NCBI RefSeq assembly: GCF_009762795.1
Contig: NZ_CP046400.1
Location: 310,001-374,000 of the forward strand
DNA length: 64,000 bases
Direction: 5' to 3'
Source of the DNA: Pseudodesulfovibrio cashew
GTDB taxonomy: Bacteria > Desulfobacterota > Desulfovibrionia > Desulfovibrionales > Desulfovibrionaceae
Shown here piece after piece: positions 55,263 to 61,000 of this stretch (its first letter is position 1; every line of letters begins with the position of its first letter). The position numbers were made by a program, and so were the translations under genes. The notes beneath the pieces were generated by a model, which saw only the letters and a list, made by a program, of their open reading frames with translations, ran no database searches and had not been told where the DNA came from.

Positions 55263-57029
55263 TCACTCCAGGTGCGTTGTCCGGCTGCCGGGGGCCGGAT
55301 CGCCCAGAGCCAGCCCGCCCGCCAGAAAAGTCATGGTCCCGAGATCGCCAAAGGTGGTTGCCTGACGCACGGTCAGTCGCACTGGTTCGCCGTACTCCAC
55401 CTTGAACGGCTTGCCCACTTCCAGGGGGGAATTGCCCGCCGTGGCAACCAGCTTGTCGCCGGGGCCGTTGGACCAGGCCGCCTCAAGCACGTATTCCCCT
55501 ACGGGCAGCCTGTAGCTGCCGCCGGAGGTCCAGGGGATGAGCAGGGACTGACCGCTGTTGCAGGCCAGCCGCAGGGCATGCACCCTGCGCGGCTCGATGT
55601 CCACATAGAACTCCGCCGTTTCCGCTCCGGGAGTCTCGCGCACCACCCGGTAGCGCACCGCGCCGGTCCTGTCCGACGCCACGGCGTACCGTTCCAGAAA
55701 ATTGCCGGGATCGAGTATGATCTCCCAACCCAGGTCCTGGCCGTTGTTGGCCCAGGGAATGGCCACGAACCCCTTGAGGTTGACCACCTCCTGCCGGTCA
55801 CTGCCCCAGATGCCCTCCATGATGAGCTGATCGCCGACCACAGTGCGCAGGACCTGGCCGTCACGGACAAAGGTCGGATTCCCGTTGAGCCAGCAGACGA
55901 ACACGGGTTTGTCGTCGGCGCTTCCGGCGGGCATCTTCCCGGTCCAACGGACACGGGTCTTTGCCACCTGCTTGCCGTCGCTCCGCAGCTCCAGCTCGGT
56001 GAACGGCTCCAGGGCCATGCGCCGGGCCTTGATCAGGTTGACGCCGGGACGGTCCGAGGCGAACAGGGCCAACTCCGGGGAGAACGCCTGAGGACCGGAG
56101 GACTCCTTCTCCACGGACAGGGTCGCGCCCGGAGTCAGGCTGATGGCCGAATTCCCTTCCATCAACCGGCCGTTGACGCGCACGCGGACATCCTTGCGGG
56201 CGTATGCACGCACGTCGGCGTCGGTGAAGTCGGGCGGGGTGACGGACACGCCCAGGCGATTCAGAAGCATCACCGTGGCCGCCAACTGCTGGCGCACCTT
56301 CCAGTCGATCTGTCGGATGTCCTTGGATACCTCCACGGCCATGGCCGGGATGCCGACCTCGGCCAGCGCGTAACAGGTCAGCGACTTGCGCATCTCGGGG
56401 TAGTCGGTGGCCTTGTCGAAAGTCCGGGTATTGAACAGCTTGAACTGGTAGTCACTGGCCCCGATGGAGCGGTTGAGCTCGTCCAGGACCGAGTTGACGG
56501 TGTGGGCCAGGTCGATCTTGTCATAGACCAGGGTGTCAACGATGATGGACTGGCCGTAGCGCATGGGGTTGCGCAGGTTGTCGATGTACGTGGGGTGATA
56601 GAAACCGCTGCCCTCGTGCAGATGGATGAAGGCGTTGCTCTGGGCCAGCAGGTAGCGGATGACGCGGGCCACGCGGTCTTCGTAGAAGCGGTTGTAGTCC
56701 CGGTCGAAGCGCCGGTTCATGTCAACGTTGATCTGCCGCTTGTGCAGGTTGATCGACGGCACGTTGGCCCGGGGCAGGATGAGCAGGTTGCCGCGCGTGA
56801 CCTTGGCCTGAGTCAGAAGCTGAGCGGTGATGAATCCGGCAGATTCATCGCCCTGTATGCCGCCCTGGACCATGATGGTCGGCCCGGGCAGGGGGCCCTC
56901 CAGATAGACCACCTTGAGGGGATACTGGGTATCCGCAAAGAACGAGTGAACCCAGGACTCCGCTGAAGCGGGCGAAGCCGCGAGAAAGACCGCCAGGGTC
57001 AACGCCATCAGAAAGAATACACGTTTCAT
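55263..57029 (-). CDS. M99-family (Csd4-like) zinc carboxypeptidase
   Basis: This 588-residue periplasmic enzyme has a signal peptide ending near SPASA (residue 23). The zinc ligands fit the unusual Csd4 set: Q59 and E62 in GGIQGDES and H138 in FIHLHEGSGFYHP. Csd4 of Helicobacter removes D-amino acid residues from peptidoglycan tripeptides and gives the cell its curve. The peptidase domain spans about 25-265, and the remaining C-terminal half is a string of beta-sandwich modules (RVRVNGRLMEGNSAISLTPGATLSV). Downstream in the operon come a coiled-coil membrane protein and a Csd6-like enzyme upstream in reading order. Confidence 0.86.
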   Translation of the reverse strand: MKRVFFLMALTLAVFLAASPASAESWVHSFFADTQYPLKVVYLEGPLPGPTIMVQGGIQGDESAGFITAQLLTQAKVTRGNLLILPRANVPSINLHKRQINVDMNRRFDRDYNRFYEDRVARVIRYLLAQSNAFIHLHEGSGFYHPTYIDNLRNPMRYGQSIIVDTLVYDKIDLAHTVNSVLDELNRSIGASDYQFKLFNTRTFDKATDYPEMRKSLTCYALAEVGIPAMAVEVSKDIRQIDWKVRQQLAATVMLLNRLGVSVTPPDFTDADVRAYARKDVRVRVNGRLMEGNSAISLTPGATLSVEKESSGPQAFSPELALFASDRPGVNLIKARRMALEPFTELELRSDGKQVAKTRVRWTGKMPAGSADDKPVFVCWLNGNPTFVRDGQVLRTVVGDQLIMEGIWGSDRQEVVNLKGFVAIPWANNGQDLGWEIILDPGNFLERYAVASDRTGAVRYRVVRETPGAETAEFYVDIEPRRVHALRLACNSGQSLLIPWTSGGSYRLPVGEYVLEAAWSNGPGDKLVATAGNSPLEVGKPFKVEYGEPVRLTVRQATTFGDLGTMTFLAGGLALGDPAPGSRTTHLE

Positions 57030-57097
57030 TGCACCACCACCTGACTCCCCCCGGGGAATCCGGCCGGCGTACGGCGGGAGCCCGGATTACCGTGTCC

Positions 57098-57113
57098 GCC
57101 GGACGCGTCCGGC
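57098..57113. repeat. 16-bp perfect palindrome between M99 and membrane-protein genes
   Basis: GCCGGACGCGTCCGGC is self-complementary. It lies in the 99-bp gap between two genes of the cell-shape-like operon, where it may act as an mRNA processing or partial-termination stem. Confidence 0.5.
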
Positions 57114-57128
57114 CTGCCGGCGGCCCGG

Positions 57129-57848
57129 CTAGGAAAGAATATGGTAGAGGGGGTATGTTTCGGCAAAGATCACCCCTCCGTCCTTGCCCTTGATCTCGAG
57201 CCGCAGCCCGAACAGCTCTTTCCTGTCCACACCGTCGGGAAGGACGAAAACGGTCTGGATGCGCTTGAAGCGCTGAATCTGGAAGCTGAGATCGCTCTTC
57301 TTGACGTTGGCGTCCTGCGTGGAGCCATCTTTCTTCACCAGCGCGATATCGCCCTGCCCCACCACCGAAGTGGAGGTCTGCAGGTTATTGAGCTCGAAGC
57401 TCACGGAAATCTTCTGCCCCGCAATCTTGGCCTGGATGTTCTCCACGCCCACCTGCTGGGTGTCCACGCGGGTGAATACCTTGTTCAGGTCCACCTCGGG
57501 GGCCTCGGGCTCGTTTTCAGCCTCGTTGGTGGCGGCGGCCAGCAGGGATTGCAGTTCCGCCGGATCGTAGGACTGGAGTATCTTCTCCATGTTTCCCAGC
57601 CGCTCCAGCCGGACCTCGGCGCCCACCAGGCGCTGCTCAAGCTGCTTGTTCTCGCCCCGAAGATCGTTGTTGACCTTGAAGCCCCGCACGCCCATGTATA
57701 TGCCGCCCGCCGCGCACAGGAACAGGAAGACCTGCATGAACACGAACATCTTCAGCCAGAAAGGGCTCACGCGATAACGCGTCACGTCGCGGTCGTCACG
57801 CATGAAGAGTACGCTGTATTTGGAATTACTCACCGTGTCCGTCTCCAC
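57129..57848 (-). CDS. Bitopic coiled-coil membrane protein in cell-shape-like operon
   Basis: This 239-residue protein has a short cytoplasmic N-terminus (NSKYSVLFMRDDRDVTRYRVSP), one membrane span (about 34-56), a coiled coil (about 60-95, NNDLRGENKQLEQRLVGAEVRLERL) and a periplasmic beta-rich domain at about 130-235 (FELNNLQTSTSVVGQGDIALVKK, FKRIQTVFVLPDGVDRK). I know no family for it. It sits between the Csd4-like and Csd6-like genes and overlaps the latter by 19 bp, so it may scaffold these enzymes. The start at 57848 has no strong ribosome site. Confidence 0.72.
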   Translation of the reverse strand: METDTVSNSKYSVLFMRDDRDVTRYRVSPFWLKMFVFMQVFLFLCAAGGIYMGVRGFKVNNDLRGENKQLEQRLVGAEVRLERLGNMEKILQSYDPAELQSLLAAATNEAENEPEAPEVDLNKVFTRVDTQQVGVENIQAKIAGQKISVSFELNNLQTSTSVVGQGDIALVKKDGSTQDANVKKSDLSFQIQRFKRIQTVFVLPDGVDRKELFGLRLEIKGKDGGVIFAETYPLYHILS

Positions 57849-59089
57849 TGCTCGCTTTCGATTTTCCAGGACTTCCCGTCAGGCACCAGGACCATGGTCT
57901 TGCGGCCGAAATCCGAATAGCCCGCCTTGTCTGCAAATGTCTGATCAAAGGCCACCTGCAGGCCCTGGGGATGCATCGCGACCGTCAGGTGATCAACGCC
58001 GACCCTAACAGGCGGCGTCTTGGCCCACAATGCCTTTTTGTAATCAACAATGCTGGTTGCGCCGCTCCGGTTGCCCTGCACCGCCTGCGGCGCGTAGAGC
58101 GAGCCGTAGGCCTCGGTGTCCATGCCGAGCCAGGCCTTGCGCCACGCCTCGACTACTGCCTTGGCCTCGCCGGTCTTGGCAGCCAGGTACTTGTCGGTCA
58201 GGTCCTCGCTTGCGGGAACATACTCGCGCCCCACGATCCGCCACCGGCCGTCGGCGTCCTGCTTCCAATAGAATCGCTTGCCCGTGGTCGAAGCCATGCC
58301 CGTGGTGCGATAGTACTGGTCGAACCAGGTAACCCAGTAGTCCGGTCCGGGCAGGGCGCGGATGTTGTCGACCATGACCTGAATCCAAGCCTTGGACGCG
58401 AAAATCCGCCGTTTGTGATCCACGAACCCCTTGAAGTCCTGCCCCTCGGACAGGGTCATCAGGGCCGGGTCGTAATGCTTGAAAAAGTCGTCGCTTTGCT
58501 CCTGCCAGGTCTTGGCCCAGTCGCGCAGCTCACTGGCCAGGGAGTCCGCCACCACCTCGTTCTCGCCGGGATCGGCGGTCCACTCCACGTCCCTGGCGAT
58601 GACCACGGGCATGCCGTAGCTGATCTCCTTGGACATGTAGCGCATGTCCGGAACCTTCAGGGCGACGCAGCCACGGGTGTCGCGGGGCACGAAGGTCTTG
58701 CCCCTCCCGTGAATCCAGATCCCCCCCCCGGTCTTGCCGTTGATGCGGTCGACCGGATTCGGATAGTTCAAGGAATAGGCAAGGTTGCCGTACAGGTCCC
58801 AGTCCAGGTCCTGATTTATGCGGTATCCCACGAAGTAGACGCCCTCGGGCGTGCGCAGGTCGCCTTCCACGAGCTTGTCGCCCTCGGACTGTCCCGTGGT
58901 GCACGGGAAGCGGTAGAGCTCGTGCAGGGGCGAGCGGCGCTCCAACATGAAGAGCGTCTGGTCTTCCTTGTCCACGGCCACCATCCTACGCGGACCGTAG
59001 TCATGGGACGACAAGGTGGGAGTCCACCCTCCGGCCAGGGCCGGAGCGGTGCACAGCATCAGTGACAGGACTACGATCAATAGGCGCAA
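57830..59089 (-). CDS. Csd6-like L,D-transpeptidase/carboxypeptidase with NTF2-like domain
   Basis: This 419-residue periplasmic protein starts at TTG with AAGGAG upstream and has a signal peptide ending near ALAGG (residue 20). The YkuD domain (about 35-175) has IWIHGRGKTFVPRDTRGCVALKV, with catalytic H127 and C141. From about 195 on are a helical section and an NTF2/SnoaL-like domain at about 290-415 (VVEAWRKAWLGMDTEAYGSLYA). Helicobacter Csd6 has this order and acts as an L,D-carboxypeptidase after Csd4. The pairing with an M99 gene supports that role here. Confidence 0.85.
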   Translation of the reverse strand: MRLLIVVLSLMLCTAPALAGGWTPTLSSHDYGPRRMVAVDKEDQTLFMLERRSPLHELYRFPCTTGQSEGDKLVEGDLRTPEGVYFVGYRINQDLDWDLYGNLAYSLNYPNPVDRINGKTGGGIWIHGRGKTFVPRDTRGCVALKVPDMRYMSKEISYGMPVVIARDVEWTADPGENEVVADSLASELRDWAKTWQEQSDDFFKHYDPALMTLSEGQDFKGFVDHKRRIFASKAWIQVMVDNIRALPGPDYWVTWFDQYYRTTGMASTTGKRFYWKQDADGRWRIVGREYVPASEDLTDKYLAAKTGEAKAVVEAWRKAWLGMDTEAYGSLYAPQAVQGNRSGATSIVDYKKALWAKTPPVRVGVDHLTVAMHPQGLQVAFDQTFADKAGYSDFGRKTMVLVPDGKSWKIESEQWRRTR

Positions 59090-59139: not shown

Positions 59140-59700
59140 CTACCTGCCTCCTGCGGACAGCAACTCGGCGCGGGTAAAGATGGAACGCAGTTCCAACCCG
59201 GCTTCCTTGAGCTTTTCGCGTCCGCCCTCTTCACGGTCTAAAACGGCCAGCACGCCGACGATCTCGAGGCCCGCGTCCCGCACGCGTTCAGCCGCCGTGA
59301 TCAGGGTGCCGCCCGTGGTGCAGACGTCCTCCAGGAGCACGACCTTGTCGCCCTCGCCGAAGTTGGCCAGCCCTTCCAGGTACTGGTTTGTGCCGTGCCC
59401 CTTGGACTTCTTCCGGATGATGAACCCCGGCATGGGGCGACCTTCCAGATGGGAAACAACCGTCACGCTGGACACCAGGGGATCGGCCCCCAGGGTCATT
59501 CCGCCCACGCCCTTGGCGTCGATATCCTTGAGCATATCGACGAAGAGTCGGCCGATGAGGTAGCTCCCCTCGGCGTGCAGGGCGGTCTGCTTGCAGTCAA
59601 AGTAGTAATCGCTCTTCTTGCCCGAGGTCAGGGTGAAATCCCCCTCGCGGTAGGAGAGCTCCAGCAGGAGTTTGGCAAGCTTGGCTTTCATGTCGTTCAT
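59140..59700 (-). CDS. pyrE: Orotate phosphoribosyltransferase
   Basis: This 186-residue PyrE joins orotate and PRPP to make OMP in pyrimidine synthesis. The PRPP-binding loop VVLLEDVCTTGGTLITAAERV is intact, with YREGDFTLTSGKKSDYYFDCKQ at the N-terminus and FIIRKKSKGHGTNQYLEG in the flexible loop. The length is normal. GAGGGGAAATAAC precedes this ATG, and the purB stop is only 1 bp upstream, so the two are cotranscribed. A longer frame to 59793 has no support. Confidence 0.95.
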   Translation of the reverse strand: MNDMKAKLAKLLLELSYREGDFTLTSGKKSDYYFDCKQTALHAEGSYLIGRLFVDMLKDIDAKGVGGMTLGADPLVSSVTVVSHLEGRPMPGFIIRKKSKGHGTNQYLEGLANFGEGDKVVLLEDVCTTGGTLITAAERVRDAGLEIVGVLAVLDREEGGREKLKEAGLELRSIFTRAELLSAGGR

Positions 59701-59701
59701 G

Positions 59702-61000
59702 TTATTTCCCCTCGAAGACGCGAGCAAAGACCACATCCTCGTATCGCTTGTAATACGAGGGGTCGAAAGCTTCGTCAAGGTCGTTAGATGCAAGGTGTTT
59801 GTTTACTTCCGCATCCTGGCGGATCTCATCCTCGAACTGGACTTTGTTCTCCCAGCAGCGCATGGCCACCTTCTGGACCATCTCGTAGGCGGCCTGCCGC
59901 TTGAGGCCCGTGGCGATGAGCTTGTTGAGCACACGCTGGGAATAGAACAGCCCGAAGGAACCCATCAGGTTGCGCTGAATATTGTCTTCTTTGACAACCA
60001 GCCGCTCCAGCACGCCGCACATGCGGTGCAGCATGTAGTCGATGAGGGCGGTGGTGTCGGGCATGATCACGCGTTCCACCGAGGAGTGGGAGATGTCGCG
60101 CTCATGCCAGAGAGCCTGGTTCTCCATGGCGGCCAGGGAGTTGGACCGGATGACCCGGGCCAGGCCGCAGAGGTTCTCGGCGGAAATGGGATTCTTCTTG
60201 TGCGGCATGGCCGAGGAGCCCTTCTGCCCCTTGGAGAAGCCTTCCTCCACCTCCAGCACCTCGGTGCGCTGCAGATGCCTGAGCTCCAGGCCGAGACGCT
60301 CGATGCCGCCGGCCAGCATGGCCAGGGCGGTGAAGAACTGGGCGTAGCGGTCGCGCTGCACGATCTGGGTCGAATGCGGGTCGGCCTTGAGGCCGAGGAT
60401 GGCGCAGGCGCGCTCCTCCAGCTCCGGGCTCAGATGGGCGAAGGTGCCCACCGCGCCGGACAGCTTGCCCACGCGGATGTTCTCGCGGGCCGCCTCGAAG
60501 CGCTCCTTGTGGCGCTGAAATTCGGCGTGGAATCCGGTGAACTTGAGGCCGTAGGTGGTGGGCTCGGCATGAATGCCGTGGGTCCGGCCCATGCAGATCA
60601 GGCCCTTGTGGCGGTAGGCCATGTCCTTGAGGACGTCCAGAATACGGTCGATGCCCTCGGCCACGATGGCGCCCGCCCGAGTCAGGAGCACACCGTTGGC
60701 GGTGTCCACGATATCCGAGGAGGTGCAGCCAAGGTGGATGTACCGGGAACTGGGGCCGACCTTCTCCTCCACGGCGGTGAGGAAGGCGATGACGTCGTGC
60801 TTGGTGGTCTCCTCGATCTCGAGGATGCGGTCCAGTTCGAAATCCGCTTTCTCATGGATCTCGTCGCAGGCCTCCTGCGGCACCTCGCCCATTTCGGTCC
60901 ATCCCTTGGTTACGGCCAGTTCGACCTCGAGCCAGACCCGGAACTTGTTTTCCAGGGTCCACAATTCCCTCATCGCCGGACGGGAGTATCTATCTAACAT
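59702..61000 (-). CDS. purB: Adenylosuccinate lyase
   Basis: This 432-residue PurB cleaves SAICAR and adenylosuccinate in purine synthesis. The N-terminus RYSRPAMRELWTLENKFRVWLEVELAV and the middle IHLGCTSSDIVDTANG and GRTHGIHAEPTTYGLK are typical. The fumarase-superfamily signature GSSAMPHKKNPISAENL is complete. The length is normal. It begins the pyrE-purB operon in reading direction, so purine and pyrimidine genes are joined. Confidence 0.97.
   Translation of the reverse strand: MLDRYSRPAMRELWTLENKFRVWLEVELAVTKGWTEMGEVPQEACDEIHEKADFELDRILEIEETTKHDVIAFLTAVEEKVGPSSRYIHLGCTSSDIVDTANGVLLTRAGAIVAEGIDRILDVLKDMAYRHKGLICMGRTHGIHAEPTTYGLKFTGFHAEFQRHKERFEAARENIRVGKLSGAVGTFAHLSPELEERACAILGLKADPHSTQIVQRDRYAQFFTALAMLAGGIERLGLELRHLQRTEVLEVEEGFSKGQKGSSAMPHKKNPISAENLCGLARVIRSNSLAAMENQALWHERDISHSSVERVIMPDTTALIDYMLHRMCGVLERLVVKEDNIQRNLMGSFGLFYSQRVLNKLIATGLKRQAAYEMVQKVAMRCWENKVQFEDEIRQDAEVNKHLASNDLDEAFDPSYYKRYEDVVFARVFEGK

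Follow-up and report, generated by a model that had tools for sequence, protein, structure and literature searches.

The stretch analysed here, called the window below, comprises 64,000 nucleotides of Pseudodesulfovibrio cashew (bases 310001-374000 of a host genome that is a single contig of 3,909,950 bases). Among named organisms, the nearest relatives that carry this locus are Pseudodesulfovibrio. Three adjoining open reading frames (ORFs) on its minus strand, found at the coordinates where a sequence-only reading of the same DNA had proposed a cell-curvature operon, encode a YkuD-type enzyme (LDT), a membrane protein (MID) and a carboxypeptidase (M99). Comparison of these genes with their relatives makes it reasonably probable, in our view, that the operon serves cell curvature, with MID acting as a bactofilin-to-carboxypeptidase adaptor. 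The enzyme identities and the curvature theme of the sequence-only reading are supported; its proposal that the membrane protein may position the enzymes gains stronger support, from bactofilin genes in the operon of other families and from the LmdC-like tail of MID.

The question addressed is what keeps a trimming enzyme that is soluble in the periplasm at one side of the cell. The authors of the Bd1075 study stated that the mechanistic basis for targeting to one lateral wall was not known (PMC8938487), and MID, with its defined tail and a putative bactofilin partner, would be a concrete candidate for the missing targeting part. In the proposed mechanism, the MID tail would bind a bactofilin filament that runs down one flank of the cell, the helix and coil of MID would span the inner membrane, and its beta-sandwich would hold LDT, and M99 where present, over the strip of wall marked by bactofilin, the NTF2 domains of LDT helping to bind or sense the wall. 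LDT would trim wall tetrapeptides to tripeptides and M99 would take tripeptides to dipeptides; with uncrosslinked stems removed locally, that strip of wall would bend. The reactions are taken by analogy from Csd6, Pgp2, Bd1075, Csd4 and Pgp1, while the effect on curvature and the binding of MID to bactofilin and LDT are what we infer.

The membrane protein MID and its cytoplasmic tail

MID (57129..57833, minus strand) is predicted to be a bitopic membrane protein of 234 residues. It belongs to no Pfam family and has no PDB sequence match of note, and a fold search returned generic beta-sandwiches alone, with no specific fold match. An AlphaFold2 (AF2) model built from 20 sequences (mean pLDDT 81.5) has one membrane helix, a short coiled coil and a confidently predicted C-terminal beta-sandwich. 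The helix running into the coiled coil takes up residues 24-88 (57570..57764, minus strand; pLDDT mostly >85), and the putative periplasmic beta-sandwich takes up residues 113-234 (57132..57497, minus strand), with strands between 128 and 228 at a pLDDT of about 90. MID was also considered as an M23 peptidase and rejected as such, since it has no Pfam match and its C-terminal domain is a beta-sandwich.

The cytoplasmic tail, residues 5-26 (57756..57821, minus strand; KYSVLFMRDDRDVTRYRVSPFW), is a candidate bactofilin-binding hairpin, by its conservation and its likeness to the LmdC tail. It is the most conserved part of MID (mean information 3.25 bits, compared with 2.0-2.4 bits elsewhere), and M11, R12, D13, D14, V17 and R19 are invariant in the alignment. 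In the LmdC-BacA system of Hyphomonas and Rhodospirillum, an M23 endopeptidase is recruited by bactofilin via a cytoplasmic hairpin, and the MID tail resembles the tail of M23 proteins of the LmdC type (KYHIVVFKDKQGSCKKFQIRGW). When the profiles of the MID and M23 tails were aligned with hhalign, the score was 16.3, compared with 7.65 +/- 1.86 in 300 column shuffles, one of which scored as high. A model of the 45 N-terminal residues of MID, searched against 9,821 ORFs, had an M23 as its top match outside MID itself. The likeness of the two tails, as judged by these comparisons, is suggestive but falls short of proof.

Linkage to bactofilin and distribution of the module

Weak matches to MID elsewhere in the phylum were mostly MID-like proteins lying between LDT and M99. 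Fifty-seven M99 loci were fetched outside the Desulfovibrionales; LDT stood beside M99 in 46 of them, and at these LDT-linked loci MID was detected 39 times by hidden Markov model and twice more by eye. Across the phylum many families show the order LDT-MID-M99, the genes overlapping or lying very close together, and in several of them it occurs as purB-LDT-MID-M99; although it belongs to no Pfam family, MID is therefore old. That three unrelated genes lie together here by chance has a practically negligible probability: functional linkage is, admittedly, deduced from sequence only, but this recurrence refutes chance as regards conservation.

Bactofilin was present in the same cluster in 17 of the 46 LDT-linked loci, always on the strand of M99 and in at least nine families, and in none of the 11 M99 loci without LDT. 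We estimate that a bactofilin would fall within an 11-kb stretch by chance in about 0.5% of cases, taking a 3-Mb genome to encode one or two bactofilins. At two loci (L184 and L200) pyrE, LDT, MID, M99, M23 and bactofilin stand in a single row, the M23 being of the LmdC type. At three loci (L179, L194 and L206) the beta domain of MID is fused to the end of LDT.

The 150 genomes of the Desulfovibrionales that were searched include 105 with MID, 90 with M99 and 120 with Cds6_C. The genes purB-pyrE-LDT-MID form a stable core in nearly all loci examined in the order, and M99 follows MID in only part of the loci fetched. It is clear that the conserved pair is LDT-MID, and that M99 is a third member, which is often absent or has a canonical, unlinked Csd4 in its place. 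M99 as an obligate member was rejected, as it is absent in Pseudodesulfovibrio pelocollis and several lineages, and 43 genomes have an unlinked canonical M99.

Two classes of M99 occur in the order: a diverged class, adjacent to MID in 41 of its 47 genomes, and the canonical Csd4 class, adjacent to it in 0 of 43. No genome of the order carries both, a distribution suggesting that one class substitutes for the other within it. Outside the order they are not always exclusive; two genomes, G375 (loci L214/L213) and G456 (L223/L224), have both a solitary canonical M99 and LDT-MID-M99. One Desulfovibrionaceae genome (L115, G088:C2:28000-38000) has an additional M99 that belongs to the LDT-linked class but stands unlinked. 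A further genome (L092, G134:C1:1228000-1238000) retains MID together with both NTF2 domains of LDT and has lost M99 and the YkuD catalytic domain.

The genome of the window has two bactofilins and one LmdC-type M23, all unlinked to LDT-MID-M99, and relatives of this M23 in two other families adjoin bactofilin. In a set of 61 Desulfovibrionales genomes, MID was present in 34, each of which also encodes bactofilin and an LmdC-type M23 of full length, and MID was found in none of the 17 lacking bactofilin. Desulfonatronum genomes that keep MID alone at the locus still have bactofilin and other Cds6_C genes.

The same data bear on a simpler explanation, in which MID is a mere membrane tether or stabiliser of LDT, and bactofilin acts through the LmdC-type M23 or other proteins and is linked only as a shape gene. 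LDT-MID being the tightest pair, the fusions of the MID domain with LDT, the stabilisation of Csd1 by Csd7 (PMC9507126) and the lack of bactofilin linkage in the Desulfovibrionales would all fit. We nevertheless regard this explanation as unlikely: the highest conservation of MID is in the cytoplasmic tail and not in the periplasmic domain, MID survives in Desulfonatronum without LDT at the locus, and in none of the 61 genomes does MID occur without bactofilin.

Several observations weigh against MID as an adaptor to bactofilin. No hairpin strands were predicted in the tail by AF2 (pLDDT about 50), either in the full model or in a short-fragment run. A position-specific matrix of the MID tail separated M23 tails from 581 other membrane-protein tails with an area under the curve (AUC) of 0.84, but 40 shuffled models gave a mean AUC of 0.57 and a maximum of 0.859, some reaching the observed value; the tails are only weakly alike, and as the M23 proteins are related to one another the statistics lack independence. 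Within the Desulfovibrionales bactofilin was linked to the module at 0 loci, and the absences of bactofilin and MID cluster in few lineages and thus amount to a handful of independent events. In Desulfonatronum MID follows pyrE at a locus that has neither LDT nor M99, and at L179 and L206, which are linked to bactofilin, the fusion of LDT with the MID domain is without the MID tail. The comparison of gene content with cell shape (see below) covers two other species.

Beyond the adaptor role at this locus lies a broader proposal, to which we would give an even chance: that MID is the founder of phylum-wide bactofilin-carboxypeptidase adaptors, that curvature is trimming aimed by the cytoskeleton, and that one short tail, common to MID and the LmdC endopeptidases, would be a general address tag for bactofilin. 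If true, this would join the Csd4/Csd6 carboxypeptidases with the bactofilin-LmdC module, systems that have been studied apart, in environmentally important sulfate reducers.

The two enzymes and the layout of the locus

M99 (55263..57029, minus strand) is a secreted protein of 588 residues of the Csd4/Pgp1 type and belongs to the LDT-linked class. It matched Pfam Peptidase_M99 with E = 1.7e-29 (103.6 bits, cut-off 27) and the Csd4 structure 4wck in the PDB with 6e-23, Csd4 structures being matched over residues 48-263. The sequence-only reading had claimed an M99 carboxypeptidase with the Q-E-H zinc set, and this was confirmed by the profile, by the structure match and by the zinc ligands Q59, E62 and H138, which correspond to Gln46, Glu49 and His128 of Csd4. 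In addition, R106 corresponds to Arg86 of Csd4 and the catalytic base E233 to Glu222; these zinc, arginine and glutamate residues of Csd4 are named in PMC4220969. Among the 74 M99 proteins linked to LDT, 73-74 keep each of these five residues. By analogy with Csd4, M99 would be a DL-carboxypeptidase converting tripeptide to dipeptide.

LDT (57830..59089, minus strand; 419 residues, TTG start) consists of a YkuD domain (residues 35-164) followed by two NTF2 domains (184-286 and about 310-415). It matched Pfam YkuD with 3.8e-17 and, over residues 184-286, Cds6_C with 6e-26; its best PDB match was 7o21, that is Bd1075, the curvature enzyme of Bdellovibrio (1.2e-29), whose NTF2 domain aligns at 310-416. 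Of 107 homologues, 103 keep H127 and 104 keep C141. Position C+2 is occupied by alanine, as in the LD-carboxypeptidases Csd6 and Pgp2, whereas most LD-transpeptidases have arginine there. By analogy, LDT would be a secreted YkuD LD-carboxypeptidase converting tetrapeptide to tripeptide. Near its C-terminus W415, kept in 95 of the 107 homologues, aligns with W303 of Bd1075, a residue required for targeting to the outer curve (convex face) of the cell (PMC8938487). The Csd6 organisation earlier ascribed to this protein holds for the YkuD H/C pair and the Cds6_C NTF2 domain, but LDT is not simply Csd6-like, as the second NTF2 domain carries W415.

LDT, MID and M99 are one transcription unit directly downstream of purB-pyrE (59140..61000, minus strand), which are its conserved upstream neighbours. 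For MID, the start of the longest ORF, an upstream ATG, was ruled out by an in-frame TAG that lies between this ATG and the conserved MS[ND]SKYS in several relatives. Because this TAG interrupts the upstream extension, the start is placed at GTG 57833; therefore MID overlaps the stop of LDT by GTGA, 4 bp. That the membrane-protein gene is contiguous with both enzyme genes and overlaps one of them had been noticed before and was seen here, the overlap being with LDT, but its size is 4 bp and not 19.

Some loci showed further features. In Desulfonatronum and Desulfonatronovibrio-type genomes (L046 4429-5019, L047 6992-7648, L055 4453-5043), pyrE is separated from LDT or MID by the gene for a lipoprotein of about 200 residues with a WPDL-x-D-x-Y motif, which is absent in the genus of the window. 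Some Desulfonatronum genomes encode further proteins with the MID C-terminal domain (L043 5526-6548, L044 5271-6239); at L044 this domain is joined to an N-terminus resembling a RodZ-type helix-turn-helix protein. Desulfonatronum-type genomes, in which MID is kept but LDT is missing from the locus, carry tandem Cds6_C genes at another place, and these match the Csd6 family much more strongly (L113, G052:C1:262000-272000).

Cell shape and comparison with known systems

Conservation of the trio in curved and straight relatives, suggested as a check by the sequence-only reading, was scored in two species. Desulfomicrobium baculatum (G079), whose cells are short rods, is without M99, MID, LmdC-type M23 and bactofilin. 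Desulfohalobium retbaense (G040), whose cells are straight to slightly curved, has bactofilin, M23 and LDT and no M99, and its MID match is marginal only and not convincing. The gene content of these two species agrees with a role in curvature.

It is distinctly improbable, in our opinion, that the module serves general wall maintenance, division or recycling and is not specifically concerned with curvature. A part in general wall metabolism is possible for LD- and DL-carboxypeptidases, YkuD proteins of the Pgp2 type occur beyond curved cells (PMC3961634), and the neighbours purB and pyrE are housekeeping genes; however, deletion of either enzyme family gives straight cells in Campylobacter, Helicobacter or Bdellovibrio, Csd4/Pgp1 occurs in curved delta- and epsilon-proteobacteria and tracks curved species (PMC3310797, PMC3310789), the module is linked to the known morphogens bactofilin and LmdC-type M23, and it is absent in the rod D. 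baculatum.

What the enzymes do and that they are connected with curvature, shown also for Bd1075, the relative of LDT (PMC8938487), was known already; what appears new is MID, together with its operon and the proposed adaptor role. Our search of the open-licence literature found neither MID nor an operon of LDT, MID, M99 and bactofilin reported, and no such system described for sulfate reducers. The earlier impression that the system is not well studied there agrees with this, but Csd4/Pgp1 in curved delta-proteobacteria has been published, as has the adjacency of pgp1 and pgp2 in some curved delta- and epsilon-proteobacteria (PMC3961634). On their own, with no further proteins, Pgp1 and Pgp2 do not make E. 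coli cells curved (PMC3961634).

M99 shares with Csd4 of H. pylori and Pgp1 of C. jejuni the QxxE...H zinc site, the catalytic glutamate, the substrate arginine and secretion, but it is longer (about 590 residues compared with about 440), it is far from the canonical class (Pfam M99 E of about 1e-30 compared with about 1e-80), and it stands in an operon with LDT and MID, to which the canonical Csd4 copies of the Desulfovibrionales are never linked. LDT has, like Csd6, Pgp2 and Bd1075, a YkuD domain with the H/C pair followed by a Cds6_C NTF2-like domain. It differs from all three in being partnered by MID, and from Csd6 and Bd1075 in having two NTF2 domains instead of one, which makes it a variant architecture.

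Csd5 and Csd7 of H. pylori are adaptors between the bactofilin CcmA and the wall (PMC9507126). Like them MID is bitopic and non-enzymatic, a likeness that is functional only and drawn from their description: Csd5 ties bactofilin inside to the wall outside and has an SH3 domain, unlike MID, and Csd7 stabilises a hydrolase; no operon of Csd5 or Csd7 with Csd4/Csd6 was found described. With LmdC, MID has in common a short cytoplasmic tail, a single membrane helix, a periplasmic coiled coil and a genomic and phyletic tie to bactofilin; in MID, however, a non-catalytic beta-sandwich replaces the M23 domain, and the enzymes are separate proteins.

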